A stretch of DNA of 64,000 nt. Origin: Cladopsammia gracilis (taxonomy: Eukaryota; Cnidaria; Anthozoa; Scleractinia; Dendrophylliidae). Positions 474-30,039 of the stretch are shown here, in pieces (positions within the stretch are counted from its first letter, which is position 1; each line of letters begins with the position of its first letter). The notes beneath the pieces were generated by a model. The model was not told the origin of the DNA, ran no database searches, and saw only the letters and a list, made by a program, of their open reading frames with translations. The translations under genes were made by a program, and so were the position numbers. The stretch is taken from positions 2,442,501-2,506,500 of the forward strand of contig JAJGOT010000020.1 in NCBI GenBank assembly GCA_022457155.1, written 5' to 3'.

Positions 474-548
474 AGGAAGCATGCGAAAACTGTCCTAGCC
501 CATGGACATGTATTCAAGGAGAATGCAGGCCAAATTATGAGTCCCCAG
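474..548 (+). CDS. Gene A exon: truncated EGF-like module
   Basis: Reads EEACENCPSPWTCIQGEC and then RPNYESP, between acceptor cag (471-473) and donor GTATGG. Phase 1 at both ends. It has only four cysteines (CxxC, C, C), so it is a short or degenerate module. It is the earliest exon visible; the exon before it is outside the window. Confidence 0.6.
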
Positions 549-3500: not shown

Positions 3501-6500
3501 GCCTGTTTACAGCTAACGGTTAATTTCTTCCCTTTACGGTTAACAGAAATATTAAAAGTTAATTTTCATTGTTTTAAAAAGTTAAAAATTAATTTCTATT
3601 TTAGCAATTTTAAAATTAAACCTGATTGTTGTAAAACGCATTTGAGGTCTTAGAACCATTCTGAGACAAGACACAAACTCACATAACAACGTAACAGTCT
3701 TAACAAGAGATCGCAAATGACAGATCGTGACTAGCATTTATTTTTACGCCTGACAACAAAATTTTGAGCCGTTTTACAGCTAACGGTTAACCCCATTGAG
3801 ACCCTCAAAATAAGAGGTTTAATTATATTTAACAATCTTTTGCAGTATATGATCCATGTTCAGATTTCCAGTGCCATAACGGTGGGAGATGTGAAGTAAA
3901 GCATAATGTCCCACAATGCAAATGCGAAGCACCATATGAAGGAATAAATTGCCTTCGTAAGTCTACTTACTATTATTTTTTAAATTTAATTTATGTAATT
4001 ATATATTAATTATCAATTAATTATATATTGAACGTAACACGAGGAAGAGTGTTTCATCAGGATTTCCAAACACCTGCAAGTGGGTTAAAAAAACGAGCCG
4101 CAGCCGAGTTTTATTTTTAACTTCGAGTTGTTTGGATACCTACTAAAACATTCTCTCGAGTGTTTGATATAGGCCACTTCGAAAAATACCATAATACTCT
4201 TTAAAGTGGAGGTTTGGGTGGTGCTTGATGTAAGCCTGATTTTTCCAATTTCTTTTGTTTTGATCACGAACTGCAACTTCTTGGCAATTCGCATACGGTG
4301 CACATTTGTATGCGAACACACAATGCTACGTCCTAGCGTTCTTACATGTACTCTGAATTCCATTGTGCCATTCTAACAAAGGAGACTTGAATAATTACAC
4401 ACCGGAGAGAGCGGAGTCATAGCTGTCGAAACGATGTCTGTGATTGGCAAACGATACAATTGATATATCACCCTATTCCAGCGAGACAAATCTATTGTTT
4501 GCTTAGCGAATCACAGACATCGTTTGGATAAGTGCAGGACTACCCACTGGAGAGGTGAGCCTGCACATAAAAGATAAGTATGGTATTTTTCGAAGTGGCC
4601 TATAGCATCTCAAACTGATCATTAAATGCAAAGAAAACGAAAGACAGGGTTTCCAAACAACTACCAATCTTATGGTTTTCTTTGTTAAAACTTGATGAAT
4701 AATTAATGATTGAGAAGAATAAGTGCAAAAGATGGTTTTCACTCACGTGACCTTCAGTCCTGTGGGACTCAAATGACAAAGGCCGTGGCGGCCATGTTGG
4801 TGCACATAACAAAAGAAGTTCATTAGAATTATTTTGTAGGTGTGCACCAACATGGCCGCCGTGACTTAACGTGAAAACCACCTATAGTGCCTTAGGGTAT
4901 TAATTCGGTTTGATTAGGCAAGCAAATAAAAAAGAACAGTCAAGCAAATAAATAAGCTTATGCTTGTTGCGTGTACACCGGCCATTAAAGTTACTTGAAT
5001 ATTTTGTCTTTGTAGTTGACAACGCGTGTAAACCAAAAGACGGTGTAAACAGGAACCCTTGTAAAAATGGCGGGAAATGCGAATTCGAAAACGGTGAAAT
5101 AAAGTGCGCTTGTCCAATACCTTATGAAGGCCCAACATGCTCAGGTAAGCTTCACACCGCCTCACGCATATAGCAATGCGCATTAATAATAAACAAACAA
5201 TACTTTCAAGTCAAGAGAACCCCGTCCCCCATGATAATTATTTTCACACATATTAGAGCGTGTTCTATTGGGGACAACCGTTTTGGTTGTTTTGGTTGGT
5301 TGGGTTTTTTCGTGTTCCATTGATATGCGTGTCGTCAGCCGTTTCGTAACAAACAAAATAGCGGCTTTTTTTTATTAGGACATAAGGTGAAATTTCTCCT
5401 TTGTTTACGCTTCAAAGCGAACCCAGGTCTACAGGGTTCTGCCTCTTGGCAGGGTCTAATTCATTAGTGACTGAAGATGAGGGATTTTTGCGGTGGACGG
5501 ATGAAAGCGTCAAATTGTTAATCTCACTGTACTTCAAATTGTTAATCTCACTGTCTTCTACAACTTCGGATACGGCAAGGGCCAGGGCAGCAACTTCACG
5601 GATTCCGGCCGCCATTTTGGCGAAGTTAACCCGCGTTACATAAAGAAAGCAGTGTTTGCAGTCTCGCTCCAATGACCGCACGTTCTCTTTTCCACAGAGA
5701 TCAAATATCATATATCATATAGTTCTCATCATTGCTGGAGGTAATTTGCTTGTACAGCGAAGGGAAACTAGGTGTTGTGTGAGAGACTTTGAAAATCCAA
5801 AAACCCGCCAATTCTAAAGTTACTTGACGTCAAACTGACAAATACCACGCAGTATGGCACCAAATTAATAATAGATCAACCCTCGGACGTGCACGCAAAC
5901 TTATACCCCCACTGTGGTACAAGGGGGCTCTGCTGGGGGTTCGTTGCGTCATCCAAAATGGCCACTTGTCTCCATCTTGGATTTTACTAAAAATTCAAAT
6001 TTATCAGGAAAATGCAGAAATTGCAAATAGATTTTGCTAAAGTTGCAAAATAAGATAAATTTGTACTAAGCTAAGTGTATATCCACATTAAATAAAGTAT
6101 GTTATGTTATGTTATGTTATGTTATGTTATGTTATGTTATGTTATGTTATGTTATGTTATGTTATGTTATGTTATGTTATGTTATGTTATGTTATGTTAT
6201 GTTATGTTATGTTATGTTATGTTATGTTATGTTATGTTATGTTATGTTATGTTATGTTATGTTATGTTATGTTATTTAGCTCCACAGACTGAGGTAACTA
6301 AAGTTGTCGTAAACTTACACCGTCGTGAAATCGCTTATTCGACATCAGATTTAGTAGACGTCTACCTTCTTTCAAATGTGATTGGTTGATTAAAATTGTA
6401 CGCAACCGGTTTTTATTTCTTAGTATATAATAAATTATATAATTTTATATAAAATTGTAATGTTATTTCTTTACCTCCACTATTTTTCTGTAGAAAACAA

Positions 6501-8834
6501 GTGCGATAAATGTGACAAAAAACATGGATTTTGCGATAAGGGAATCTGCAAATGTAAGCCACCGTACACAGGAGACGGAGTTACATGCACAGAGCCGGAA
6601 GAACCACCAGCAAGTAAGTGATGAAAACATTCAACTCAAAAGATTGTTTTCATGTGCGCAAGCAGTTTGCTTTTCTGACTTTAAAGTGCCTATCACCCCT
6701 AGAAAGTTATTTTCAGAATCAACTCTATGTACATTGAATAGTTGAATGGTAAAATATTTCTTGTTTTGAACGTTGCGTTTGTGAGTTATAGAGATTTGAA
6801 TTTACAAAATGCTAATTAGATGACGTCAACACTGGAACCTTTTTTTATACAACTACTTGTTTTCACCTCCAAGTAATATTTTTTACGAATCAATTGACTA
6901 TCTACACCATTTTTTTTTTTAGTGTTTATCAAATTAATTAACCTCAAACTGCAAACTGCGCTCTGTAAATTGGCGTAGAAATAATGGCAAATTCCCGGGT
7001 TGACGTCATCTAATTAGCATTTTGTAAATTCAAATCTCTATAACTCACAAACGCAACGTTCAAAACAAGAAATATTTTACCATTCAACTATTCAATGTAC
7101 ATAGAGTTGATTCTGAAAATAACATTCTAGGGGTGATAGGCACTTTAAGGGCAAAGCCAGATATCTAGCAGAGAATGCCAAATGAAACGACTTGGAAAAA
7201 TTTTGAAGCCTGCAGATCTTTGACAGCCGATTTTTGGAGAAAAGAATATTTGGGCCGCGTTACGCGAAAAGGGCCCGAATGACATATTTACTCGATTTTG
7301 AGTTTTTAGCTTTTTTGCCCACTTCAATCCCTAAATAATATCATGGAAGCGAAAAAAGTCCGGAAATAAAAATTAAAACCGTAAAAATCGCGCCTTGAAT
7401 GCACATACCGAAGGCTTCCGCCATTTTGAGCAGCTGATTTTAAATGCAAATTACTCGAAATCACGTGTCATGTCGTCCGAACCCTTTTCGTGTGACGCGG
7501 CCCATTTAGAAAATTGGCGAAATTTTGTATGCGGCCGGCATTTTGGTGTACCAAAATGGTACATCAACATGGCAACCGAATTTGTGTTTTTTAGATATTC
7601 TTCAAATATCGATAAATTTATTTTAAAATTGTTTCTGTTCAGTTCAAAGATTTAAAAGGCGTCCGATTTGCATCCTCGCTTTAGAAAAGCATACAAGTTT
7701 CGCACAAGGAGACGCTCAGCTGCACCCCCAAAACGTTTTAAATACTGTATATTCAAAATAAAGCAGTGTAATGTATTGACATGAAACATTACTGATATAA
7801 AGTAGCTGTTAAAAGAACATCCGTGTACAATAGGTTGTGTAGATAGAATTTTGATGACGTCAGCTGAAAACAACTTGAAGACTGTCGAACTGTGTACATG
7901 ACTCTCCGGTCCGTGTCTTCTATTTTATGTTGGAACTGACAACTGAAAGCATTCTAGATTGGATCCTCTAATGATTTTTTTATATATATACTTTGGTCCG
8001 TATCACTCTTTAAACGGGTCAGGATCCACTTTTCAATCTGATATGTTTTGTAAACAAGCTTTCAATGTATATTTCAATTTTATTACTCATGCGCGTAGCG
8101 GCATGAGTTATAAAATGGGCTCCGTTTTTCTTATTTTTTTCTTTTATTTTTTTTTGGTGTCACGATTTTGCATGTAAATTTATGCAAGCATAAAACTATT
8201 TTAAATTGTGGTCTTCCGTTTCATAGACTTCCTGTTTAGTGACTTCCGGTTACTCCAACTTCCGGTAAAACAGCGTTACTGAAGTGTCACGACAGCATCT
8301 CCTATAACCCTACTTACATTTACTTACATTACTGATGTTCACGTTAGGTATATATATAAGACTTAGAAGCAGCCTTCATTTACAAAACATTCAATAGTAA
8401 ACGACGATGACTGAACGAAAGGAGTAACTCTTCTCTTCTCGGACATCTTCTTATCATGTTTCTTAGGCATGCGCATGAGTATAGGCTGCTTGCAGTCTTT
8501 TGTTATATTTATATTTTTTTTCAGAAGCGCCTCCGACGTCACCATCAGAACTTGCAAATAGCTGTGATCCAAACAAATGCTTAAATGGAGCGACATGCGT
8601 GGAAGGCAAAAGTACTTTCTTCTGTGTCTGTCCTCCAAACACCAATGGCAGACTGTGTGAGAAAAAAACGACACCAACTACAGGTATGACGATCATGCAT
8701 GGTTTTAATGGTGATTGGTCGTAATAACAGCAAATTACAGCGATTTTATATGATGTTATATTGGAATAAAGACAATTTGCTAATTACAATAAAATTTATA
8801 ATAATAATAATGATAATAATAATAATAATAATAA

Positions 8835-8866
<32 letters not shown>

Positions 8867-10533
8867 TAATAATCATAATCATAATTTTAATCTTTAAAAT
8901 TGCCTATATTACATCTCATCTGGCCGATCGACTGAAACTGCAACACTGTAAATCCTTGGCAACCTAGGTCCTGGGTGCCCTAACATAACTTATGTCTGGT
9001 TATGTTGACTTATGAATGCAACAAAACCTCATCTTACTAAGAAAAATCACCAAAAATTACAAAAGAAAATAACAAAAAAGAAATAAAAATAAAAATAGTG
9101 TTCTCAATGCCTTATTAATGATTATTTGCGTGTCCTTTTTCGATATCAAAGTCAATGTCAAACAATTCCAAATTGATTATTATTACTGCAAGACATCAGT
9201 TTTTAGGGTTGGTTTTTACGTTTCAACTTTTAACTAGATCAATTCGAAATAACAACCGCGACACGCTTAATTTGAATCTGTATGTTGTTGTTATATCTAT
9301 AATCTCAGTCTTTTAATTTTAATTAGCAAAATATATATCGCAGCAGATCTAAAAATGACATAAGTTTCTGTCGGAAACCTGTTTTGAAATCTTAAATATA
9401 AATCGTATTTTTCTTGAAAATTGTATGATTATTCGTGGCTTATCCGAGTCCGTACATTTTATAAAGAGATTTTTTTATTATAAATGAAACATGCTTAGTG
9501 ATATTCAAAAATTAAAAATAACTTGTCTTCGCTCAGTTTTATGTCAGCAACAAGGACTCTCTATTGCGGACGCCAAATTTTGGGTCTTACAGCAGAAACG
9601 TTATAATGCCTTAAATCCAAACGAACTTTTTTTAATCTGATCTTATCATTCAAATATTAGAAATTTTCCACTTTTCATCTTTGTAAATACATTGTATTTT
9701 TTATATCGTGTTTCGTTATTATATCATGCACAGCTCCTCCACCTAAAGCAGTGTGTCATCCCAATCCTTGTCTTAACGGGGGCATATGTAAAGAAACAGG
9801 AGTCAACCAGGACTTTGATTGCATTTGTCCCAACCCCAGGTTCAAAGGAAGGTTTTGTGATGGTAAGTTTTCAAAATGCTTTTTCGAAATGAACGAAATC
9901 CTCGAAGAGGGGATCGTGCAACTGAAAGTTTTGTGATGACACAATCATGAAAAGCGATGTTGCAGTAATTATAGAGCGTTTTCACTGACGTCATATCAAA
10001 ATTCAGAAGCAGTTTTCTATTCTAAAATGTTTCCTACAGCTTTGTAGGATGTATACTTTAGATTTTTTAATTTTTATGACGTCATGTGAAAACGCTCTAT
10101 AGCTATTATAGCTATTTAAGAGCATAGTTTTGCCCAATGCCACCTACGCATTAGTGGTATATGGAGCCTCAATGCCAGAATTAACTACAGTGTAAGCTTT
10201 TCTAGACAGATGCTATAAAAGGCAATACATTTCAGTTAGGTTAAATATTAGAGCTTTTGTGGAAAAACAAGACCGGAAAGCTTTTAAGAAAATTTCCCAA
10301 CTTAGTACCCACCCTCTACGCGAGCAGGTTCCAAAGACTAAGGTCATCAATATTACAACTTACGCACACTTATTAATACAGAACGTTTTAAGAATATTTT
10401 TATTAATAGATTTATCTATAGATATAAACTCAATATGTAATAAGATAAGATTTTTTTCTCCTCTTGGTGTAAAAAATATGTAACATAAGATATGTAGTAT
10501 TTATCTTATGAGAAATAAAGAGATTTATTATTA

Positions 10534-10573
<40 letters not shown>

Positions 10574-12975
10574 GCTAATAGCTATTAGAAAGTGATTTCC
10601 GGTTTTCAGGGATGAGCAAAATGAAGGGTTTTTACAGCGTTGCGTGATATTTATAAATTGTATGACATGTTTTATTTGCAGTGGACATGTGTGCGGAATG
10701 CGATCCTCACGCTCGATGCATTAATGGAAAGTGTTACTGCCGAAGAGGTTACATAGGAGATGGGTATTCCTGCAAGAAAGGTTAACATCTAGTAGTTCAG
10801 AAGTAGAAAATCCCCGTTTCAGAAAACGTTTTCTCTATAGCGAACAGAGAAAATTGAATTGGGATTGGAAATTTTGTTACTCAATTCCGTACTCGCCAAT
10901 GTTTCCCATCCACGCTTCCTAACGGGATCCAGTCATTTATTGAATATTAATGAAAACTGTTAAAAAAGCTGGGCATTTGATTTGTCATAAACAAGCCCAT
11001 CTTGCTTGAATTCGTGGTGCTTTGGAGCAAGGGAAAGAAGGTCGATAAAATAAGGTTGGAAATCATGCCTTTATCCTACCGTCAACATCGCCCTCTTTAA
11101 CTTGGGTAATTTGCCTTAAAATAAATGGCATAATTTTTTTGGCAATGATGTCTGCTTGTTGATATTTTTGGTTGTCTTTTTTTTTTCATTTAGTAAAACG
11201 GAAATGTCCTGAGTATTCCACACTTATCAGTGGCGACATCTGCATTTGTAACCCTGGTTACTACATGAACAACGCTGGGAAACGTACCTGCATTCGTGAG
11301 TAAAACTTAAGTGAAACAATTGTGTATATATTAAGGACCAACAGGGTCATACGAACGTCCACACAGGCTAACTATAACAACGCATATGCGATTCTCCTCT
11401 TAATTGTAGTTTCTGTTAGTAATCTGTGCCTCTCCTGATTATAGATTTGTATAGTTTCAGTGAGTAGTAGACTCCCTTTCAATAACAGTAACAGTTATCA
11501 ACAAGTTCACAAGCATGAAAGGGACAAGGAACAGAAAGGGACCACGCCCATACAGACTAGTTGTTGGACCAGCATCAAGCACCTTTTCCTCTTAAAAATA
11601 CAAGAACCTATTACAAAGCCTAAATTCATAGTGGACACCAAATATATAACAACCTTTTTAGGATAACTTGGAAAAATCTAGATTCTTATTTGTGGGTTTT
11701 TACTGTATTCAAAACACTTTCATTACGATTTTGAAATACTATTATACACCTATTAGAACATTACCAAATTTTATTTTAGTTTATCAGGACGCTTAATGTC
11801 ATCCTGAACTCGTCAAGAATCATTTTTTTAACGAGTTCTTTATGTTAGGCAATAATTATGACTTGTTCAAAGGTATTTGGAAACAGTAAATAAAAGCTTA
11901 ATAATTAGACGTTGGCACAATTTAGACTTCGTTTTACAAAATGTCCGTTTGTTTTTCCTTCATCTCAGCGACTGAGACTTCAGTTCGAGGTCTATCTTCA
12001 TCACAACACGGAAGTAAACTGCAGCTCCCTCTTCCAATGGACAATTCCATAACAAGGAGCGGACAGCAGTGGTCAGGTAACGAACCGAAATATACAGCAA
12101 CTCCAAAATATACATCAAAATGGGCCAATTTATTGGTGTTGCGGAAGCCATTGTTAGTTAGGTATTGTGTTGTGGTGTGGGCATTGTTCATTATCTATTC
12201 AATCTTTTGTCTTACGTCACTTCGTAATCGCAACTTCCGCAACACCAAGAAACTGCCAACGTAAGCCACTCGTTGGGGGTGGGGTTGGTTGTTACTTCCA
12301 GTCCCATGGCTACTGCTTCCTTTTGACGCTTTTTCTATTGCAATATTGTGAAAAACCGCAACTAGTGTGCAAATAATAATGACTTCAATGACAACCATAA
12401 AACAATCGCCTTCATAATAGACAGCTACTAATAGATGCTTTGTTCATTACAAGAAGAGTTTAAGAGTTTTAGTATTGATTTGGTAATTCAAATGTTAACC
12501 CATACCGTTTCACGCCTGACGGTGTTAATATACGAAAGCAATTCAAACATTTCAACCTTGTCGGTTTTGTATATCAGTCTCTCTCACTGAGAAACGCGTC
12601 CCTGGTGCGAGGATGCATGGTCAGATCGAGGTAACTGTGATGTTTTGTTTTCAAACAGAAGACATCATAGTAACAGAATACCGTAACTTGGGCTGCTGGG
12701 CAGACACAACTGAGTGGAGGAATCCATCTAAGCGAGCAATGATGGTGATGGAGGGTTTAGATCCGCTTCTTGCTGCGAATTACCAAGAAAGAAAACAGCC
12801 AATCAGCAAATGCGCAGAAGTAGCCAAGCGGCTGGGATTTCGGGTATTTGCAATTCAAAATGGCGGCCAGTGTTTTGGTGGTGCAGATGAGACTACGTAT
12901 AAAACGTACGGGCCGTCAGAGAAGTGTGCTGATGGTGTAGGTGGACCCTTAGCTAATGATGTGTACAAGCTCTAA
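474..12975 (+). CDS. Gene A: secreted multi-EGF protein, 5' end outside window
   Basis: Spliced gene with 13 visible exons: 474-548, 1093-1233, 1348-1458, 2230-2358, 3846-3956, 5016-5144, 6494-6613, 8525-8683, 9734-9862, 10682-10780, 11194-11295, 11969-12076, 12659-12975. Every junction is GT-AG and phase 1, and the exons join into one frame of about 575 residues ending at TAA 12973-12975. The modules are EGF-like domains of two kinds: the six-cysteine CxPNPCxNGGxC type and a shorter type with CxxC near the start and a GDG before the last cysteine. They are followed by a cysteine-free linker exon and a terminal four-cysteine domain. The first visible exon enters in phase 1, so an upstream exon (start codon and signal peptide) must lie before the window. 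EGF arrays of this kind are extracellular. The terminal domain resembles ones I associate with cnidarian and other invertebrate secreted proteins; a precise function cannot be given. Gene B follows 8 kb downstream in the same orientation. Confidence 0.85.
1093..1233 (+). CDS. Gene A exon: EGF domain
   Basis: Six-cysteine EGF module (ACGPINPCLFGGHC, then CICPEGRAGSHCE) preceded by 12 residues of linker. Acceptor ttgcag, donor GTAAGT, phase 1-1. Confidence 0.85.
1348..1458 (+). CDS. Gene A exon: short EGF-like domain (GDG type)
   Basis: Reads SSCNGCHHHAVC, then CSCRPGYTGDGKKC; the CxxC start and GDG before the last cysteine define the short EGF type. Acceptor ttggtag, donor GTAAGT, phase 1-1. 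A longer open frame runs through this exon into intron on both sides, but the splice sites bound the cysteine module exactly. Confidence 0.85.
1459..2229 (+). other. Gene A intron, nothing recognised
   Basis: An intron of 771 bases between two EGF exons. It is AT-rich, with no conserved frame, cysteine module or repeat that I can see. Confidence 0.5.
2230..2358 (+). CDS. Gene A exon: EGF domain
   Basis: FCHPNPCLNGGMC, a long C3-C4 loop rich in charged residues (EEETADPNKPDWW), then CDCSKGYSGKLCN. Acceptor tatttttag, donor GTATGG, phase 1-1. Confidence 0.85.
2359..3845 (+). other. Gene A intron with one small MITE
   Basis: Holds the short inverted-repeat element at 3199-3329, a short direct repeat of acttggaa units at 2750-2785 and GCCTCAGA units near 3076-3100. 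The rest shows nothing recognisable. Confidence 0.5.
3199..3329. mobile_element. MITE, terminal inverted repeat AGTTTCTTGGTGTTG, copy 1
   Basis: Begins AGTTTCTTGGTGTTGAGGA and ends with the inverse (CCGCAACACTAAGAAAC). It is flanked by the same 11 bases, AACTTTCGGGT, at 3188-3198 and 3330-3340, which look like a target duplication. Two further copies are at 12131-12254 and 27100-27233. Confidence 0.75.
3846..3956 (+). CDS. Gene A exon: EGF domain
   Basis: YDPCSDFQCHNGGRC, then CKCEAPYEGINC. Acceptor ttttgcag, donor GTAAGT, phase 1-1. Confidence 0.87.
4024..4171. mobile_element. Foldback element related to 40331-40473
   Basis: The GAGGAAGAGTGTTTCATCAG arm is answered by a diverged inverse ending TCTCGAGTGTTTGATAT. 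A better preserved copy lies at 40331-40473. Downstream sequence in both places (CTCAAACTGATC.TTAAATGC at 4608 and 40735) also matches, so the palindrome belongs to a longer element of roughly 550-700 bases. Confidence 0.6.
4735..4879. mobile_element. MITE, TTTTCACTCACGTGAC family
   Basis: Starts GGTTTTCACTCACGTGACC and ends with an inverse ACGTGAAAACC. The inner arms GGCGGCCATGTTGGTGCAC and its complement (about 4787-4805, 4842-4860) form a hairpin. A related element begins at 63866. Confidence 0.65.
5016..5144 (+). CDS. Gene A exon: EGF domain
   Basis: Reads VDNACKPKDGVNRNPC, KNGGKC, then CACPIPYEGPTCS. A five-residue insertion lengthens the C1-C2 loop. Acceptor tttgtag, donor GTAAGC, phase 1-1. 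Confidence 0.85.
6098..6276. repeat. Pentanucleotide microsatellite (GTTAT)n
   Basis: An almost uninterrupted run of about 35 GTTAT units in a gene A intron. It gives artificial open frames reading MLCYV over and over, which are not genes. Confidence 0.97.
6494..6613 (+). CDS. Gene A exon: short EGF-like domain (GDG type) plus Pro/Glu tail
   Basis: NKCDKCDKKHGFC, CKCKPPYTGDGVTC, then the acidic-proline tail TEPEEPPA. Acceptor ttctgtag, donor GTAAGT, phase 1-1. It is the second of three modules of the short type in this gene. Confidence 0.85.
6681..7148. mobile_element. MITE with 150-bp terminal inverted repeats
   Basis: The arms at 6681-6830 and 6999-7148 are near-perfect inverse copies, starting TTAAAGTGCCTATCACCCC. 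The spacer is 168 bases. It has no coding capacity. It lies in the intron after the exon ending at 6613. One arm of the same family sits in a gene C intron at 56245-56395. Confidence 0.85.
7149..8524 (+). other. Rest of gene A intron
   Basis: AT-rich intron sequence without recognisable genes. The region near 8080-8180 (ATGAGTTATAAA, then GCATG.AAATTTATGCA) resembles 44115-44215 and is probably a shared old repeat. Confidence 0.45.
8525..8683 (+). CDS. Gene A exon: EGF domain with Ser/Thr/Pro linkers
   Basis: Linker APPTSPSEL, then NSCDPNKCLNGATC and CVCPPNTNGRLCE, then a Lys/Thr-rich tail. Acceptor ttttcag, donor GTATGA, phase 1-1. Confidence 0.85.
8684..9733 (+). other. Gene A intron with (AAT)n tract
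   Basis: Contains an imperfect trinucleotide AAT run at about 8800-8875. Otherwise AT-rich with nothing recognised. Confidence 0.5.
9734..9862 (+). CDS. Gene A exon: EGF domain
   Basis: APPPKAVCHPNPCLNGGIC, then CICPNPRFKGRFCD. Acceptor cacag, donor GTAAGT, phase 1-1. The minus-strand and other-frame open frames here are shadows. Confidence 0.87.
9972..10100. mobile_element. MITE, ATAGAGCGTTTTCAC termini
   Basis: Starts ATAGAGCGTTTTCACTGACG and ends with the inverse GTGAAAACGCTCTAT. It is 129 bases long. The same terminus begins another element at 63866 near the window end. Confidence 0.75.
10129..10575 (+). mobile_element. LINE 3' end relic (reverse transcriptase C-terminus)
   Basis: One frame gives LPNATYALVVYGASMPELTT. 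The next gives RCYKRQ-type and then VEKQDRKAFKKISQLSTHPL, typical of the C-terminal tail of non-LTR retrotransposon ORF2. Frames are broken between the pieces. It ends in a TTA-repeat tail (10528-10575), as many LINEs do. It is a 5'-truncated, dead insertion in a gene A intron. Confidence 0.6.
10682..10780 (+). CDS. Gene A exon: short EGF-like domain (GDG type)
   Basis: VDMCAECDPHARC, CYCRRGYIGDGYSC. Acceptor tttgcag, donor GTTAAC (weak match to consensus), phase 1-1. Confidence 0.83.
11194..11295 (+). CDS. Gene A exon: degenerate EGF-like module
   Basis: VKRKCPEYSTLISGDIC, then CNPGYYMNNAGKRTC. Only four cysteines; the C.CNPGYY half of an EGF domain is kept. Acceptor ttttcatttag after a long pyrimidine tract, donor GTGAGT, phase 1-1. 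Confidence 0.75.
11969..12076 (+). CDS. Gene A exon: cysteine-free Ser/Gln-rich linker
   Basis: Encodes 36 residues without cysteine, rich in Ser, Gln and Leu, between acceptor catctcag and donor GTAACG. Phase 1 at both ends. It probably serves as a spacer between the EGF array and the terminal domain. With no conserved motif it is less certain than the EGF exons. Confidence 0.55.
12131..12254. mobile_element. MITE, TTGGTGTTGCGGA termini, copy 3
   Basis: Lies between ATTGGTGTTGCGGAAGCC and TTCCGCAACACCAAGAAAC, in inverse orientation to the copies at 3199 and 27100. GCCAA occurs just outside both ends. It is in the last gene A intron. Confidence 0.65.
12659..12975 (+). CDS. Gene A terminal exon: GCW four-cysteine domain
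   Basis: Opens after acceptor tttcaaacag and ends at TAA 12973-12975. It reads NLGCWADTTEWRNPSK, later KQPISKCAEVAKRLGFRVFA, IQNGGQCFGGADETTYKTYG and PSEKCADGVGGPLANDVYKL. The pattern GC.D, KCA..A...G...FA.Q.GG.C, YG.S..C..G.GGP.AN.VY recurs, as I recall, at the end of secreted modular proteins of cnidarians and some other invertebrates. I know of no assigned function. An in-frame ATG at 12613 lies in the intron and is not the start. Confidence 0.82.
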
Positions 12976-20944: not shown

Positions 20945-22844
20945 ATGAAAGTTTTTAGATATTTCGGTCCGCTTCTTCTGTTGTGTCTTTCACAGTTGAC
21001 ATTTGATTCGTCTTGTAAAGCTGAGACACATCTGGAGCACAATAATGTGAAGCGGTCGAGGAAAGAACCTGTTCCAAGCAGCCACGGGGAAAAGAACATT
21101 TTAAGAAAGGATTTAAAACCTAAAAAAGCCGCACACGAGACGACAAAAGATAATGATTCTATAGCCAAAAAGCAAGATGGATCATCATCAGTCAACTTAG
21201 AAAATGAACAGCTCAGCAAGGAGAATAAGATTCATATCAAACACCATTTCCACCTGGTTGCTAAAACTGGTGGTAATTTGACTCATGAAAGAGCAAAAGA
21301 TATGAGAAGTGAAACCATAGGCGAAAAGACAATCCACTCAAAAACGTCAAATCGAAAAAATATTACGGATCACGCAAAATCTAGTGACTTACACTCAAAG
21401 AAGAAAACGGTAGTTAAGAAATATTCTCTGTTTCAGTCGATGAGTCCATTTCAATCAGAAACGGAGTATCCGCCCATTATTGGTGGTGGACAAGATTCAG
21501 CGGTCAACGACGACCAAACAGGAGAAGTTAAAGACCAAGAGTTCTCTCCCGAGGAGCAACAACAGCAACCCATAATGAATGAAGCTAATTCGCCATTGCA
21601 GTATGGTGCGTCTCAAGAGAGTGCAGGATATCAACAGGAAAACAGCCAGTCATCGGTTGCAAGCTTTGCAACCAGCAATGGTGAAGATACTAGTCAGAGT
21701 GAAGGAGGGCAGCCTTCCAGTCTTGAACAAGCCATTCAGATGCAGCAAGCGGGGTATACCCAGCAATCTCAAGAACAAGGGCAGGATACGGAGAGCATTA
21801 GACCAGACAGCCAAGGTGAGGATCTACCAGGACAGGGAAGCCAGATGATTGATGCCGGGCAGCTGCAGTATCAGGGTGAACAGGCTGGTCAAGGACAAGA
21901 ACAAGAACAAGTTCAAGGTGATCAGGAACAAAATACTCAAGAACAGGAACAAGGTGATCAGGAACAAAATGCTCAAGAACAGGAACAAGGTGATCAGGAA
22001 CAAAATGCTCAAGAACAAACTATGGGTCAAACTGGTTTTGAGCAAACAGGATTTCAACAAGAGCAACCGCAGGAACTTGATCAGCAGCAATCGCAAGGCA
22101 TTGATCAGCAGCAGCAGGATCAAACACAGGAATACCAACAACAGGAAGAACAACAACAACAGCCAAGTGAGGAATCACAGGAGTCAGAAGGTGTTCCTTC
22201 CGAATCACAAAGCCTTGCAACTTCGTCAAATTCGTATGGTGGATTGTTGGGTGAAGAAGGTCAACAAACAGCGGAAGAGCAACAAGGACAAGAAACTGCA
22301 AGTTACACAAACGAACAGTCGAATGAAGGTGGAGATAAGACTGGCCCGCCGCCTGGTATTCAATATGCATCTTCTATGGAGGAAGCACTCAAGGAACCAT
22401 CCGTAACACCGCAGGAATCCCAGGAATCCAATAGTGAAGGTGGAGACAGTCAAGGAAACTTCGGTGCCAATGGTGGTACTAGTGTCATCAACATTGGTCC
22501 TGGAACGGATTCCAAAGAGGACAGCAACAATGGTTTTACAGGAGCAGGAACTGTTAGTGCTCCAACTGGGTACCAAACCTCCACTGTTGATGACAACGGT
22601 AATCCTATCCAAACTGGGACTGAGAACAATATAAATGGGTATGCCCCCGTGACTGACCATGTTGCAAATGGCGAGGCAAATGGGTTAGAAGAAAGTCAAC
22701 AGTTGCCAGGTTCTTCGTCTTCTGAAAGTCCGAATGTGTTTAACTTTGCCCAGCAGAAGCCAGATTCTGGGACGAAGGTATCTCCACTTGCAGATGACAT
22801 TTACAAGATTATTAGCATCGCAAACAAAAATGGTCCAACGGCAG
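20945..22844 (+). CDS. Gene B exon 1: signal peptide and Gln/Glu-rich disordered region
   Basis: ATG 20945 opens MKVFRYFGPLLLLCLSQL, a clear signal peptide with a likely cut after about residue 26. Basic KRSRKE (about 35-40) could be a proprotein cleavage site. A His/Lys/Ser stretch follows, then a long Gln/Glu region and a Ser/Gly/Asn region with only one cysteine (in the signal region). A 36-base tandem repeat lies at 21917-22018. The open frame continues to 22864, but the donor G|GTAAGT at 22844/22845 gives the phase 1 needed by the next exons, so the last codons before that stop are intron. Confidence 0.85.
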
Positions 22845-24582
22845 GTAAGTTGTGTTTCAACTGACCGCCAATTAAAAACAACCCTCTGAGTATGTGTTCT
22901 AAGATAACTATGTTTTTAGAGTAACGTGTGCTGTGTTCACATCACAACCGAAACATGTTTACTCTAAACATGTTTCAGTGAAACAGGTTTCATGTAAACA
23001 TGTTTGCAATTTCATTGTTCACATTATTTGTTAATTTCAAAACATGTTTCACCCCTGGTTCTATAATTTACACTGTTTTAAGAAGCAGGCATAAGCTCGC
23101 ATGAAATTTTTATAATTACAGATGAACCATAACAAATAGAGCTCGAACTTAATGTTGAATGATTTTGTGATTTACTCTCACTTGTCAAGCTCTTCGGGAA
23201 CGACGGACAACATTTGGGCTAACGTGTTTCGTCTGGCTTACATCGAAACGACCTCGTGAGATAGTTTCAATCATGCTCAGAGTAAACATATTTCGATCAT
23301 GATTCTTACAATGCGCCGCCTGATGTGAACACTTTTCATAGTGAAACATGTTTCATTCGTGATCAGACTAAACATGCATGTTTCGCCCTGCTGTACAGCA
23401 TAAGTAAGTCAGGATCATTTATGATGGTAATTGAACTGAGTGGAGATCAATTTGGTCTGAAATCATACCAGTGATTTCAGACCAAAATTGCACGACACGA
23501 AGTTCAATTACCACTTTATTACATCCATTTTGAAATCGCACAATTTAAGCTCCCAAATACAGGATTGTAGTGAGTACCAATATTTTATTGATCCAGTAGC
23601 AGGTTTGTAAAAAAGAGGAACCGGAAACACTTTGTATGCAAAACAGGAAGACAGACGTCATGTGTCAAGATGCGATTTAGAGCAAAGATGCGAATTAGAG
23701 CAAAAAATAGTGCGATTTACAGCAAAAATGCGATTTAGAGCGATTCGGGAATAAATCGCACTGTTGAGAGCCAATCACATTGCAAGGATCACCAGTGATT
23801 TCAAAATGGATGTAATAAATCAATAAATGTTTACCCAAAACCATCTTGGATAAGTAGTAAGGTACATTATGTAAAATTCCATAAAGCTCCAATCGTAGCA
23901 TGAGTGGAGTTAGCTTCTCTTTAATAAGAGTACTTCTGAATGTGATACATCACTTACATCAAATACATAGCTCGTATTGTGACCAATCTAATCTTAAAAC
24001 GAAGATCGTAAAGGCCAGGATAAAAAAAGTCAGAGGCATGCGGTTATAAACGCGCGCTCGAGCGCTTACGTGTTTAAATATCCCCAAAAGCTTTGTTTTT
24101 CCCGCGAGTGTGCTTTACATTCAAAAAATAAGTTCGTCGTCGAAGAAATACAAATTTTTGTTCAAAAGAAAACTACTTTTCCAAAAGAATTAGAGGGTGT
24201 GCAAATTTAAGCAAAATTGTTTTCGCAGTTTAAAAACGACTCCTTCGCAAAGTAAAATACCCAGAACATACAGAAGTCCCCGTATTTATCAATAGTCACT
24301 TCTTAAAGCGTTTTCTCCCACCAAGGTTTAGAGAAGAAACTTAAAAATAATGTAACGAACCTTGGTTCGTTTGACGCCCGAAAAGTCGAACAAATCGATC
24401 AAACACTCTCCGTTCGAGCGCATGCGTATTCGTTTTTCATCCCTGTTGACCATAAGACCAAATGCCTTTTCGAGTTATAACTTTTAAGATCGAGAACCCC
24501 AGTCCATCAATATGTTTTAAATTACTATCACGTGTTTTGCTCATGTCACTTACTTACTCGCATACTAACTTACTTATTACTT

Positions 24583-24613
<31 letters not shown>

Positions 24614-27600
24614 CAACCAAATTAATCTGAAACAAAATCTTATGAACTATTAATTAAAAACCAAGCTGAAACTATTACATGGGTTTAACACGTGAAACTG
24701 GTATCTAACAAGAATGGGAATGGTCGCACGCATGACATAATATAGTTTAAAAGATGCTTTAAGCGAGCCAGTTAATTCACTTGAGCTGAACTAACAAATC
24801 TGACTACAGAACAAAATGGCAAATGATATCTGCATTCCAATAATGTAAAAATAGTTATAAGGCATAATTAACTCAGCTTTAATTAATTTACTCTAACTTG
24901 ACTAACAAAGAACAAAACAAAAATATCTCTGCACTCAATTAGTCGACAAATAAATTGAGACTCCATGAAAAACTTAATGTTACACTCAAAGAGTATACAC
25001 AAGCCTAGTATGCGCTCTGTTTTAATGCAAAGTACCCAAACCTTTATCGCAATTAATTAAAGGATAAGTTCAATATATTGTTTTCTATCCGATCCTTTTT
25101 GTGTTCGCGCCAATTACTTTAACTAAAGCGATACGGTTTTGGAGGCCAATGTGTTTCTCCAGTTTTAAGCTTTAAATTGGTATATAGGTTTGGGTACTTT
25201 GTATTGAAACAGAGAGCTTACGGTGCTTTATGTGCGACCCGGTCGAACTTCTTGAGTGCCAGCTTAACCATATGAGTATTTTCAAGAGACATCAAAATTC
25301 GTGAATTGTTTTCTTTTATGCATGCACAGTCAAGGGATGTAATGGATGCCCTCCCCATGCGAGATGCATAGACAAAGTCTGCATTATCAACGATGACCAG
25401 CCGCTGGCCCATATACTCTCCGCTCTCTCTGGTCCGGAACCAGGTATGCATGCACTAACTCGGCTTAAGTGGGAACATCGGTACTCCTTAAAGAGACAGT
25501 GTCTTCGCTGATATGAGTTGTGCACCAACTTTCTCTCCACACTTTTGAAGTGGTCTATTGGCTATGCAAATATCATAAATGCCTCACCAAACTACTGCTA
25601 ACGAAGTGTCAGTTTCTGCGTTTTAGATTAAACTTTAGCACGACCAGTTAACTACACTACTAGTAAACATAACCACGCATAATATAATTAGGTGAAACCA
25701 TTCCACTTATCTTCTTGGAATACTCTTTCTTTTTTAAACCCTTGTACAAGTTAGGTTTTAACAATTTATATCAAGTTGCAAATTAACGTTTGAGCCGAAG
25801 AAATAAATTATGGGAAAATAATAGCGTACACATTTTCATGTGTGCCGGGTAATCATGATAGAAAACGGATTTTATCGATGATGCTTAAACGCATTGATTA
25901 AATGCTGTTTTCGTAAGCTAAACCCGCCACGATTGTTTTATACCAGTAGCACATATTAAGACACAGGGTATACTACTGTAGCATCTAATGCCGGCTAAAG
26001 GACATAAAAATGAAAACCTAGCTGTAATTTCGTGTCCAGCCACACTTTATAAGTTACTAACGTTACCATGCAAACAAGTATTGAAAATAATATGTGTTTA
26101 ATTAACTGAGAGTTTTTGTTTAACCTTGTTCACATCTGAACGAAAACTTATACTGGGTTCACTGAGGAAAGGTGGTCGTGGTTACTGAAAATGGTTGTTT
26201 AAAGCATTGCTCTGATTCAATCGCTAACATAGTTTCATCAAAGCTAGTAAAATGTAATTTTTCAGCCATAAATAAACTTTCCTGTCTGCTTGTGATATAT
26301 CGCTAATTCCAAAATACCATGGTGGCCTCTTATTTCTTTGTAAATCAGTGTTACATAATTATTGGTTCCTCTTCCCTTTTAGATCACGTTTCTGTTTCAG
26401 ATGAACAGTCTCCACCAAATGAATGCAAAGAAGAATGCCACTACAATGCTAAATGTATCAACAGAGAATGCATTTGTAAGAGCGGCTACACTGGTGATGG
26501 GCTCGACTGTCGCCGTAAGTGCTTGATAAACTGTAAAATGGCCGTATTATAGAACAAGGCTATTAAGCGCTTTAATTTAAGACTAATGGCACTGGGCAGT
26601 TTGATGGTTGGCGCGAAGTGAATCAGGGGGGATGGGGGGGGGGGATGAAAATGGCATGGAGACTGACAGAGCCCTAACAGGGCGCCTGCCGTTGGAATAA
26701 ATCATTCAGCACGTTGAGTGTTGTTGAGCCCTGGGTTTTACTCGCAAAGTTTACTTGTTATTTTTTTCATTCGTTCAGAATTGTTTGTTTGCTATACATA
26801 TATGTACATGTACAAGAGAAAAATTAAGATAGTTAGATGTCTAAACGTTTGTTATTTTTCCCTTAATTTACGCAGCCGACACATGTCTACCCGGTTGCAA
26901 GCAACACGGAAAATGCATTAAGGGATTTTGTTTATGCGATCATCATCATTACTTCAATGGATATGAGTGCGCACGTATGTAATTATATTAACTATTTGTT
27001 TGTCACTATTCATTAAAACTTACCCCAAAATGAAGTTCGCATACAGTACGGCATCCGTTTGTTAGTACTAAGGGCACTTGTTCAAGTGGTGATTAATTTG
27101 ATAGTTTCTTGGTGTTGCGGATGGTGTGATCACCAAACGACGTAGAACAAAAGATTCAAAAGACACTGAACAATACCCACATCACAACACAAAAGCTAAC
27201 CAACAATGGCTTCCGCAACACCAAGAAACATCCATTAATTTTCATCCCCAATGTATCCTTGGACCAGACAATTTGCTCCACCTGGCCGCTTACTATCTAG
27301 ATGAATAATCGGGCAAATTTGCAATGATATTTTGCCCTTTCCCCAAACGCATAACGTTTGGAGGAGGGATGTGCTGATAAACCTTACATTGGATCGGGAT
27401 ATAGTACCATTTCATGCAGGGTATGTACTTGGTGTATCCCTTATTATTTTGTATTTAAACACTTAGTTTTTATTTCAGTAGAAAAAGAAGATAAAAACAG
27501 CAGAATAGGTAATCGAACCCGGGCCGTATGATCTGCTCCATGCATACTATCCACTACACCACCGAGGACTAGCTGCCGGAATCTGTAATTTTTAAGAGAT

Positions 27601-30039
27601 ATAAGATAATATGCTGCTAGACCAGACCATATATAAGAACTAACCCTTTCGATACACTGGAAATACTGGAATCAGTGCTTAACCCTAAATACTAAAATCA
27701 GTGCTTCAACCCTAGATACTGTAATCCGACCATAAATTACACTGCAATATATCTAAATACATTACAATAAGGGATACGTGAAGTACCGTACATAATGATC
27801 AGGGATACACCAAGTACCTAGGTCATGCAGGGGGACTATGCAGCTGGTGACTGCGGACATAAGCGCCGGCCCCCATGGATAATAGAAACCGACATGTACA
27901 TGTGCGCGAATATGGACTTAACTGTGCCTAATTTATTCTGCTCTTCCTTTCTTTCTGTTACTTTTTCTTTACAAATGCATGTTAAACAGGGACAAAAGTG
28001 TTTTCCCGCAAAATTTACTTACACTGTAAACTTGAATTTATATTTTCTTTCTTATAGCATACAAGATAACGCATAGAAATTGCCCCATTCAATGCGCTAC
28101 AAGGTGCCATTACAGATGCCCACCAAACTGCTGTAAACATCATCCGGTTCTAAAGATGCATTACGATAGCGGCAATCCCCAGCAAATAAACGACTCACCT
28201 AATGCTCCTCCTTCAAAACCGAAAAACGGTCCCCATCCAACAGAAGTTGTTCTTAAACCCATAGTAGAAGTGGGTGAAGCTATCGCAAACTTTGCGCCAG
28301 ACTTTCAGAAGCGTCCTGGTAATACAGATGCCTCCAATCTGGAAGCTATCACCTTGAAAGATCCTGCTGGTGGATTTTCGGTTTCACAACCGCAAGCGAA
28401 ACCCCTCTTGGGAGAAGAAGGATGCCCTGATCAGTGTAAAACTGAGTGTCGAGACACTTGCCCTGTTAGATGCTGTCTAGGAAAATGTCCTGTTATTTGC
28501 ATGGAACACTGTCACCCATCATGTCCTAAAACCTGCTGCTATCTCCACGGAACAAAGAATCCTTTTCCCATGATAAATCCCAAAGTGCAAGAGACCTTTA
28601 TGAAAACAATGGCAGAGAAATTTTGCCCTAGCGCGTGCAAGACCAAATGTGACTCAAAGTGCCCGCCAATTTGCTGCGAGAGAAACTCTTCTTCAATGGC
28701 TTTAACAGATGCTAATTTTCAACACCTCAAAAGCGAAAGCAAAAATAGCGCCGACTTTTTCGGAAACGCAATGAGCTGGTTCGGGATGATGAACTTTTTA
28801 AATATGATGTACAGTATGTATGGAAATCTTTATAATTCCAAACATAAGAAGTATCCTTTGAAATTTGACGACCATAAAGTTAAAATAATTCATCCTACAA
28901 AACCCAAGAGTATAAGCACAGAAAACCATATAAAATTCAAGGAAGTTGGCATTGCAGAAAAACCAAATGATTGCCCGGGATACTGCAACAAAACATGTTT
29001 ACATGTGTGTCCTCCAAAATGCTGTCACGAAAAACAAAATGATACAGTTTTGGGTAAGGTCGGTACGCCGTTAAAGTGTCTTCCATCATGTTCCTGGTTC
29101 TGCTCGAACAGTTGTCCAGCGCACTGTTGCTCGAACAATAAAAGGCCATTAGTGCTGGAACACCATCCGACGGAGCCAATCAAAATAGCAAAATCCTCCC
29201 CGATTACTCCACCTCAACTTTCACCAGCTAAGCCACCTGCTGCTTGCACGCCTAATTGCCCAGCCTATTGTTACCCGCATTGCTTGGAAAACTGTTGCCG
29301 AAGAGGCGAACTGCTGCCATCCATTAAACCAAAAACAGCGCAACAGAAAGCTAAACAGTCATACAGTAATTTCTTTTCCAAGACACCAGCACCTTCCAAC
29401 CAGAATTGTCCATCAATTTGTCAAAACAACTGTACACCTTCATGTCCAGTGAGATGTTGTACTGGTTCTTTATCGTCACCACTATCACCAAGTTCGACAG
29501 CTATTTCTCAAGCTCAAAGTAATGCACCCCTTTGTCCAGGTAATTGCATTTCGGAATGCTTTCCCGCTTGCACGATTAGTTGCTGCAGTGCTTACCTGAA
29601 CAAACATACCTCAGACGTAAACATTCAAACCAAAAATCCCACAAGAAGACACAAAGAACCAGCCCCAGTAACTCTATCGTTTCCTTTGCCACCACCGATC
29701 GCCTTATGCCATCCCGGTTGTTCGCGATCGTGTTATCCTAATTGCGACGAGACTTGCTGCAGGGTCTCTTCCCAACATGTTACTGGTTTTAAAAGGCCAT
29801 TTCAGGTAGATGCCCCATCAACCTACACTATTAAAGTGCCCTGTCCTACGGAATGCAGGCCATATAACTGTCTGTACTATTGCCATCACGACTGTTGCTT
29901 GCGAGAAAAAGAAACAACTGACTTAAAAGGACGTCAAGCGCCACGTTTGCAGGATAAAATGAAATACTTGAATGGAATGAGGAAGAAAAAAACAATGGCC
30001 TCTAAACTTAAATTTATGAATGTAGCTTCAGATAAATAA
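20945..30039 (+). CDS. Gene B: secreted Gln-rich, EGF and minicollagen-CRD protein
   Basis: Five exons: 20945-22844, 25330-25443, 26401-26514 (or from 26383), 26876-26974, 28058-30039. All junctions are GT-AG and phase 1; the sum is 4209 bases, 1402 residues plus stop. Order: signal peptide (about 1-26), basic stretch KRSRKE, a disordered Lys/Ser region, a Gln/Glu-rich region (about 195-460), a Gly/Ser/Asn region, three short EGF-like modules (about 634-742), then eleven CRDs of pattern C-x3-C-x3-C-x3-C-x3-CC (about 751-1356) and a basic tail. That CRD is the cysteine-rich domain of cnidarian minicollagens, also known from NOWA and cnidoin, where it forms disulfide networks in the nematocyst wall. 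No Gly-X-Y collagen segment is present, so this is not a minicollagen itself. A capsule or matrix cross-linker role is inferred. Confidence 0.85.
21917..22018. repeat. In-frame 36-base tandem repeat
   Basis: Starts at 21917, 21953 and 21989; each unit encodes GDQEQNAQEQEQ with one substitution. It lies inside the Gln-rich part of gene B exon 1. A multiple of three preserves the frame, so copy number could vary between alleles. Confidence 0.9.
22930..23400. repeat. AAACATGTTT-rich repeat block
   Basis: Many copies of the palindrome AAACATGTTT and of GTGAAAC occur here. GTTCACATCA near the left edge and TGATGTGAAC near the right are inverse, which suggests a nonautonomous element with complex ends. 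Confidence 0.55.
23424..23517. repeat. Hairpin in gene B intron 1
   Basis: GGTAATTGAACT and TTTGGTCTGAAATCA are answered by TGATTTCAGACCAAA and AGTTCAATTACC around a six-base loop. Confidence 0.7.
25012..25217. mobile_element. MITE with about 31-base terminal inverted repeats
   Basis: Left end GCGCTCTGTTTTAATGCAAA then GTACCCAAACC; the right end is the inverse with a few mismatches. It ends 112 bases before the acceptor of gene B exon 2. Confidence 0.7.
25330..25443 (+). CDS. Gene B exon 2: half EGF-like module
   Basis: Reads VKGCNGCPPHARCIDKVC, then IINDDQPLAHILSALSGPEP without further cysteine. The first four cysteines match the short EGF type of gene A, while the second half is replaced by a Leu/Ala/Pro stretch. 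Acceptor catgcacag, donor GTATGC, phase 1-1. Confidence 0.75.
26401..26514 (+). CDS. Gene B exon 3: short EGF-like domain
   Basis: DEQSPPNECKEECHYNAKC, CICKSGYTGDGLDC. Acceptor tttcag before 26401, donor GTAAGT. A second acceptor (cttttag) 18 bases upstream would start the exon at 26383 in the same phase and add six residues (DHVSVS). Confidence 0.85.
26876..26974 (+). CDS. Gene B exon 4: short EGF-like domain, His-rich loop
   Basis: ADTCLPGCKQHGKC, CLCDHHHYFNGYEC. DHHHYFNG replaces the GYTGDG loop. Acceptor acgcag, donor GTATGT, phase 1-1. Confidence 0.83.
27100..27233. mobile_element. MITE, AGTTTCTTGGTGTTGCGGA termini, copy 2
   Basis: Same family as 3199-3329. ATTAATTT flanks it at 27092-27099 and 27234-27241, consistent with an eight-base target duplication. 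It is about 88% similar by eye to copy 1 in the readable core. Confidence 0.75.
27507..27573 (-). mobile_element. tRNA-like SINE head
   Basis: On the minus strand it reads AGTCCTCGGTGGTGTAGTGG then ATAGTATGC, ending CCCGGGTTCGATTACC. This gives an A-box-like and a B-box-like element (GGTTCGATTAC) at tRNA spacing, but no clean cloverleaf. It sits between inverted repeats (27425-27441, 27801-27817). Confidence 0.55.
28058..30039 (+). CDS. Gene B exon 5: eleven minicollagen-type CRDs
   Basis: Starts after acceptor ttcttatag at 28058, upstream of the first ATG (28156); the first CRD (28081-28134) would be lost if that ATG were used. It ends at TAA 30037-30039. Ten CRDs have perfect C-x3-C-x3-C-x3-C-x3-CC spacing, for example CPDQCKTECRDTCPVRCC. 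The eleventh has one x4 spacing. Linkers are Pro/Lys/Ser-rich. One (about 28690-28850) is Met/aromatic-rich (WFGMMNFLNMMYSMYGNLYN). The tail is strongly basic. No collagen triplets, CTLD or SCP domain is seen. Confidence 0.9.
28081..29898 (+). repeat. Array of eleven cysteine-rich domains
   Basis: Copies at 28081-28134, 28423-28476, 28486-28539, 28624-28677, 28972-29025, 29077-29130, 29245-29298, 29407-29460, 29533-29586, 29707-29760 and 29842-29898. Copies 2 and 3 are almost adjacent (three residues between). The others are 15-98 residues apart. Outside the cysteines only Pro at position 2 or before the CC is common, which suggests old duplications. Confidence 0.9.

Follow-up and report, generated by a model that had tools for sequence, protein, structure and literature searches.

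A predicted five-exon gene of Cladopsammia gracilis combining a Gln-rich leader, EGF-like modules and eleven minicollagen-type cysteine-rich domains

Gene B, its second copy and its relatives

The window, a stretch of 64,000 nucleotides, spans positions 2442501-2506500 of contig C409 in the 878-Mb genome (G000) of Cladopsammia gracilis. Splicing of the genomic sequence at gene B, the gene under study, joins five exons into a frame of 1,408 codons plus a stop, without internal stop, across four introns that are all GT-AG and all of phase 1 (Table 1). The five-exon join had been claimed in the original prediction, and the splice borders, the shared phase and the open frame of 1,408 amino acids support it, as do the intact splice sites of a second copy.

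Table 1. Features of gene B, with positions counted from the first letter of the window (CRD, cysteine-rich domain).
Feature	Position	Strand	Description
Exon 1	20945..22844	+	ORF, ATG, donor gtaagt; signal peptide by inspection; most of the leader
Exon 2	25330..25443	+	Four-cysteine half EGF at 25338-25382, then conserved IINDDQPLAxILxALSGPE
Exon 3	26383..26514	+	Six-cysteine EGF-like module at 26424-26510; same in the C343 copy
Exon 4	26876..26974	+	Six-cysteine EGF-like module at 26884-26970; same in the C343 copy
Exon 5	28058..30039	+	Array of eleven CRDs, basic linkers, stop codon
CRD1	28081..28134	+	Motif scan
CRD2	28423..28476	+	Motif scan
CRD3	28486..28539	+	Motif scan; Ile4/Pro14, C-CRD-like
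CRD4	28624..28677	+	Motif scan
Met/aromatic segment	28750..28833	+	aa 980-1007; best-conserved stretch outside the CRDs (row comparison)
CRD5	28972..29025	+	Motif scan
CRD6	29077..29130	+	Motif scan
CRD7	29245..29298	+	Motif scan
CRD8	29407..29460	+	Motif scan; Ile4/Pro14, C-CRD-like
CRD9	29533..29586	+	Motif scan
CRD10	29707..29760	+	Motif scan
CRD11	29842..29898	+	Motif scan; spacing C-x3-C-x4-C-x3-C-x3-CC

The second copy lies whole on contig C343, with all exons and splice sites intact; an alignment of 12.7 kb shows 97.3% identity to the C409 copy. Exons 3 and 4 are identical between the two, followed by exon 5 (99.75%), exon 1 (98.8%) and exon 2 (97.4%). Coding differences comprise 13 synonymous nucleotide changes and 17 changes in altered codons; of the 16 residues that differ, 14 belong to the leader and 2 to the linkers of the CRD array. 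Because a linked gene, gene Z, is found on both contigs at a near-equal spacing of about 111 kb, the C343 copy is most likely the other haplotype.

Three protein-database searches returned 7, 26 and 29 matches, a yield confined to relatives that share exact five-residue words. The named relatives come from Stylophora pistillata (P0002, P0003 and P0026), Montipora capricornis (P0005), Actinia tenebrosa (P0006) and Nematostella vectensis (P0007), and they are annotated as uncharacterized or misnamed proteins; the orthologs (LOC111347648 in Stylophora, LOC116613828 in Nematostella) sit in public databases without characterisation. The Nematostella protein, at 1,348 amino acids, has a hydrophobic start, a basic segment and a Gln-rich segment, together with EGF modules and a set of eight CRDs, of which five are strict and three variant. 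Leaving out rows that are cut short or begin inside an exon, whole arrays hold eleven CRDs in nine rows including gene B, and eight in Actinia, Nematostella, P0015, P0020 and P0027; Stylophora P0002 has nine intact CRDs and two more that each carry Trp for one Cys. The same pattern, two of eleven CRDs with a Cys-to-Trp change, occurs in P0003, and one gene Z CRD on C409 has a like change. A tree of 23 rows separates four rows, Actinia and Nematostella among them, from nineteen coral-type rows with support of 100/100 and places P0008 beside gene B. All named orthologs come from hexacorals, but their sequences do not prove gene B to be restricted to this group.

Do the five exons belong to one gene? 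Exon 5 could instead be part of a gene other than that of the Gln-rich exon, for instance the upstream EGF gene, and in an older Stylophora model, P0003, EGF modules resembling those of that upstream gene are indeed joined to exons 3 and 5, with exons 1, 2 and 4 skipped. However, the order Gln-rich, half EGF, EGF, EGF, CRD recurs, P0003 aside, in all four join-spanning relatives from four species (P0002, P0005, P0006 and P0007), which are predicted models rather than transcripts and of which P0007 has its first two joins taken from the alignment, the regular expression not having caught them. Phases and splice sites also fit in both the C409 and the C343 copies. An artefact of the gene model is thus very improbable. 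The fusion in P0003, a row listed with a contig as long as that of P0002, is itself probably a model error, and its sequence suggests that Stylophora has the same gene order.

Modules of the predicted protein

A motif scan of exon 5 found ten strict C-x3-C-x3-C-x3-C-x3-CC motifs and one C-x3-C-x4-C-x3-C-x3-CC variant, in agreement with the eleven domains, ten of them perfectly spaced, that had been predicted. All 66 cysteines of the exon lie within these eleven motifs, and the scan of both strands of the window found none outside exon 5. When the residues of exon 5 were shuffled, at least one strict motif arose in 10 of 20,000 trials (mean, 0.0005).

A PDB search with a profile built from the eleven CRDs gave 11 sequences at E ≤ 10, among them 8 NOWA or minicollagen CRDs. 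The three matches with E < 0.01 were all NOWA (best, 4.5e-4), and this first rank of the NOWA CRDs bears out the predicted identity of the domain. Minicollagen chains scored E values of 0.26 to 3.6, behind the unrelated peptide nigellin (E = 0.13), and a single-sequence PDB search with the CRD region of gene B was weak (E = 0.19). The register of CRD residues was set against the NOWA chains of the profile search and against mutant names. In this register, CRD3 and CRD8 are of the C type under the rule of V/I at position 4 and P at position 14, a type that in minicollagens is described as forming several links, where the N type forms one (PMC4863159). CRD8 is of the C type in 11 of 17 coral-type rows, within a set of 21 rows that also holds four of anemone type.

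Pfam put a name to neither exon 1 nor exon 5 and showed no collagen, lectin or SCP match there at E ≤ 1, consistent with the earlier statement that the protein lacks these parts; no Gly-X-Y collagen repeat is visible in the protein sequence either. For the EGF part, Pfam gave matches to EGF_TEN (E = 9.6e-11), EGF_3 (1.3e-4) and EGF_2 (6.9e-4), none of which reaches its curated cut-off. Three EGF-like modules had been predicted: two have six cysteines that fit EGF spacing, but the first is a four-cysteine half, in gene B as well as in all three aligned orthologs.

The N-terminus of gene B is a hydrophobic start that can be aligned with that of Nematostella P0007. The leader after it, of Q/S/E/G composition, had been described as 600 residues of Gln/Glu-rich sequence. 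This description holds for its acidic Gln-rich part (aa 160-636; 477 aa, net charge -71), whose final residues are encoded by exon 2, but the 134 residues before it (aa 26-159) are basic (+12). The CRD array is again basic (+35). Measured in six of the 33 rows, covering gene B and five orthologs, the basic N-terminal segment carries +12 to +24 in all four rows possessing one, the Gln-rich segment -48 to -71 in all six, and the CRD array +10 to +44 in the four complete arrays. This basic/acidic-Gln/basic plan recurs wherever the pieces are present, except in the truncated Montipora array (-3).

An acidic, low-complexity, secreted protein of a stony coral might belong to the skeletal organic matrix, and EGF proteins are found in coral skeletal proteomes (PMC7115838). 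The same exon order, however, is shared by Actinia and Nematostella, anemones without a skeleton, and this conservation argues against a dedicated skeletal role and weakens an alternative that the original prediction had raised. None of the three ortholog identifiers, the Stylophora one included, occurs in any open-licence paper searched, and the Stylophora identifier is absent among the six LOC11134xxxx identifiers listed from the skeletal tables in the main text of the proteome paper (PMC7115838). A skeletal matrix protein is therefore highly doubtful.

Conservation was compared over 26 of the 33 rows, after dropping one fused model (P0003), four incomplete ones (P0005, P0022, P0025 and P0026) and two members of a second family (P0031 and P0032). 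In the other 25 rows, mean identity to gene B is 89% at CRD cysteines, 54% at the remaining CRD residues and 39% in the linkers, and CRD11 has the highest mean identity among the CRDs. Outside the CRDs conservation peaks at about 0.9 over aa 985-1000 (NAMSWFGMMNFLNMMY), the core of a Met/aromatic segment that occurs in some form in 26 of 26 rows. Among the dropped rows it is present in P0003 and P0022 and absent from P0031 and P0032; P0005, P0025 and P0026 do not span this region. A search of the genome found the segment only in the two copies of gene B, and a comparison with PDB gave no match. It may serve as an assembly or contact segment.

An EGF gene cluster and other CRD genes

Gene B is one of five genes between 2358 and 2506 kb of C409 that each consist of one long first exon followed by EGF motifs. 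The first exons share a hydrophobic start, a basic stretch and a low-complexity stretch, although the portion of gene B taken as its first third for this comparison is neutral, the basic stretch being the 134-residue segment given above. Genes Y, A and C have EGF motifs and no CRD motif in the stretches scanned. Gene Z (C409:2358042-2390848, minus strand, loci L007 and L015-L019), a predicted gene whose exons were joined by their strand, order and phase, has 18 EGF hits by regular expression and a terminal exon with eleven CRDs, which hold 66 cysteines on C343; the C409 copy has 65, with Trp in place of one Cys in a single CRD. Its leader runs from a hydrophobic start through a basic segment into Pro/Met-rich repeats of the PMHEMGP type, and the genome search did not find the Met/aromatic segment in it. 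Since gene Z also unites EGF modules and CRDs, the combination is not an isolated oddity. The cluster and gene Z, like the charge pattern and the Met/aromatic segment, were absent from the original prediction.

The two other cluster genes in the window flank gene B. Upstream, gene A (window 482-12972) has an EGF module at 10690-10773 (CAECDPHARCINGKC) resembling the four-cysteine module of gene B. The EGF exons of gene A are followed by a WSC-like stretch (12544-12972), just under the Pfam cut-off, which is a candidate part of the gene. Downstream, gene C (window 38020-63121) has a hydrophobic start, a first exon that is basic and then Leu/Gly-rich, and 15 EGF regex hits, and it runs towards or past the window end.

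CRDs occur in further settings. P0031 (10 strict CRDs and 1 variant) and P0032 (8 CRDs), which come from other sources, form a second CRD-array family; P0031 is much closer to gene Z than to gene B, and P0032 was grouped with it by eye. Three CRD genes stand in a row on contig C714 (1040710-1041336, 1074151-1074630 and 1116489-1116842; loci L039, L032, L040, L048 and L050), two of them adjoined by polyproline stretches and by modules that look fibronectin-II-like by eye, and judged by eye they make up a third CRD architecture in the genome. An ORF at C1414:266755-267519 (L008) encodes six near-identical tandem CRDs and a seventh, with linkers of the QQQVPAPVAQ type and a polyproline stretch.

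Exon shuffling classically involves exons of phase 1, and the cluster suggests a route by which such shuffling could recruit capsule proteins from matrix genes. Because three of the five cluster genes have EGF motifs without CRDs, an origin in the extracellular matrix is equally visible. Gene B could then be an EGF matrix gene that captured a CRD exon, its product an extracellular-matrix or secreted gland or mucus protein whose CRDs polymerise a matrix outside the cnidocyst, such as mesoglea, cuticle or mucus. The long first exons shared across the cluster speak for this, and a mesoglea collagen with a CRD is mentioned as unpublished (PMC4863159). Against it, NvNCol-7, a Nematostella CRD collagen, is reported to be expressed exclusively in cnidocyte lineages (PMC12549020) and may be the very collagen mentioned earlier. 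No CRD protein is shown outside cnidocysts in the parts of the literature covered. We regard a matrix or gland role as rather unlikely.

Proposed role and comparison with known CRD proteins

The CRD proteins described so far, in the parts of the papers covered, are cnidocyst components that polymerise through CRD disulfides (PMC4863159, PMC4321713, PMC6910907, PMC10014300), and it is by disulfide exchange that CRDs harden the capsules, which hold about 150 bar (PMC4863159). From this kinship we propose that gene B encodes a secreted structural cnidocyst protein, a multivalent cross-linker of the capsule or thread through CRD disulfides with a flexible acidic leader, at a probability of roughly 0.6. 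The original interpretation is thus supported in part: the identity of the CRDs and the single-gene join stand, and a cross-linker of the capsule or tubule would still be the best reading. Against this role, the covered parts of a paper on the Nematostella matrisome mention no protein like gene B.

A putative signal peptide would take the protein into the secretory pathway, from which it would be deposited in the growing capsule or its tubule or thread. Its basic N-terminal segment might be removed as a propeptide; gene B has KR at aa 36-37, but a propeptide signature ending in Lys-Arg is not clearly seen, because inspection of Stylophora P0026 shows no KR at that place. The eleven CRDs could form inter-chain disulfides with each other, with minicollagens and with NOWA, making the protein a cross-linker of high valency. 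The acidic Gln-rich segment may act as a flexible, elastomer-like spacer, as in cnidoin, while further contacts may be made through the Met/aromatic segment and the EGF modules. A lumenal nematocyst protein of Nematostella, NEP-19, is reported to have two EGF domains (PMC3627010).

Where in the cnidome might such a protein act? Spirocysts, which to our knowledge are limited to hexacorals, are a candidate, though as a guess only. One paper calls spirocysts anthozoan-specific (PMC3145756), and another ascribes a restricted distribution to their cells (PMC9935875). A broader and more speculative idea, unlikely as a whole, is that a cnidocyst scaffold of a distinct class arose in hexacorals when a CRD-array exon was shuffled into the EGF matrix gene cluster; genes B and Z would then be elastomer-EGF-polyCRD cross-linkers of the spirocyst or thread, and the Met/aromatic segment a previously unknown assembly motif.

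If the cross-linker reading is true, gene B would supply a missing node of high valency in models of capsule and thread assembly, which rest mainly on Hydra. Eleven CRDs in a conserved anthozoan protein exceed the eight of NOWA, a number itself called unusually many (PMC10014300). With a full-length Nematostella ortholog (P0007) and transgenic tools for this species (PMC6161364), tests of expression and loss of function would be direct. The module is known, but its architecture and the number of CRDs are new to the literature searched: among the matches listed, no description of the gene B order was found in the main texts of open-licence papers, and the original claim that no protein with this order had been described is not contradicted by the parts covered.

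The closest relative in design within the genome is gene Z, which shares with gene B the hydrophobic start, the basic segment, a repetitive leader, EGF exons and a terminal exon of eleven CRDs; it differs in its Pro/Met-rich repeats, its 18 EGF regex hits and the Met/aromatic segment, which was not found in it. Among known proteins, NOWA is the best PDB profile match and likewise ends in an array of minicollagen-type CRDs, eight against the eleven of gene B. NOWA carries an SCP domain. It also has a C-type lectin domain before its CRDs (PMC10014300), whereas in gene B a Gln-rich leader and EGF modules precede the array, with no lectin or SCP match. Cnidoin of Hydra resembles gene B in combining a low-complexity, Gln-rich region with CRDs, a signal peptide and a long N-terminal segment, of which 90 aa are described as a putative propeptide (PMC4321713). 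Its silk-like domain is a Gly-Gln-rich elastomer set between CRDs at both ends of a mature protein of 403 aa, while the leader of gene B is Gln/Glu-rich, EGF modules are present, and all CRDs are C-terminal with none before the leader. Minicollagens, in which polyproline and CRDs flank a Gly-X-Y collagen repeat, and CPP-1 share with gene B the CX3CX3CX3CX3CC domain (for CPP-1, PMC6910907), but gene B is without a collagen repeat or a long polyproline block and carries an array of eleven CRDs in place of terminal ones.
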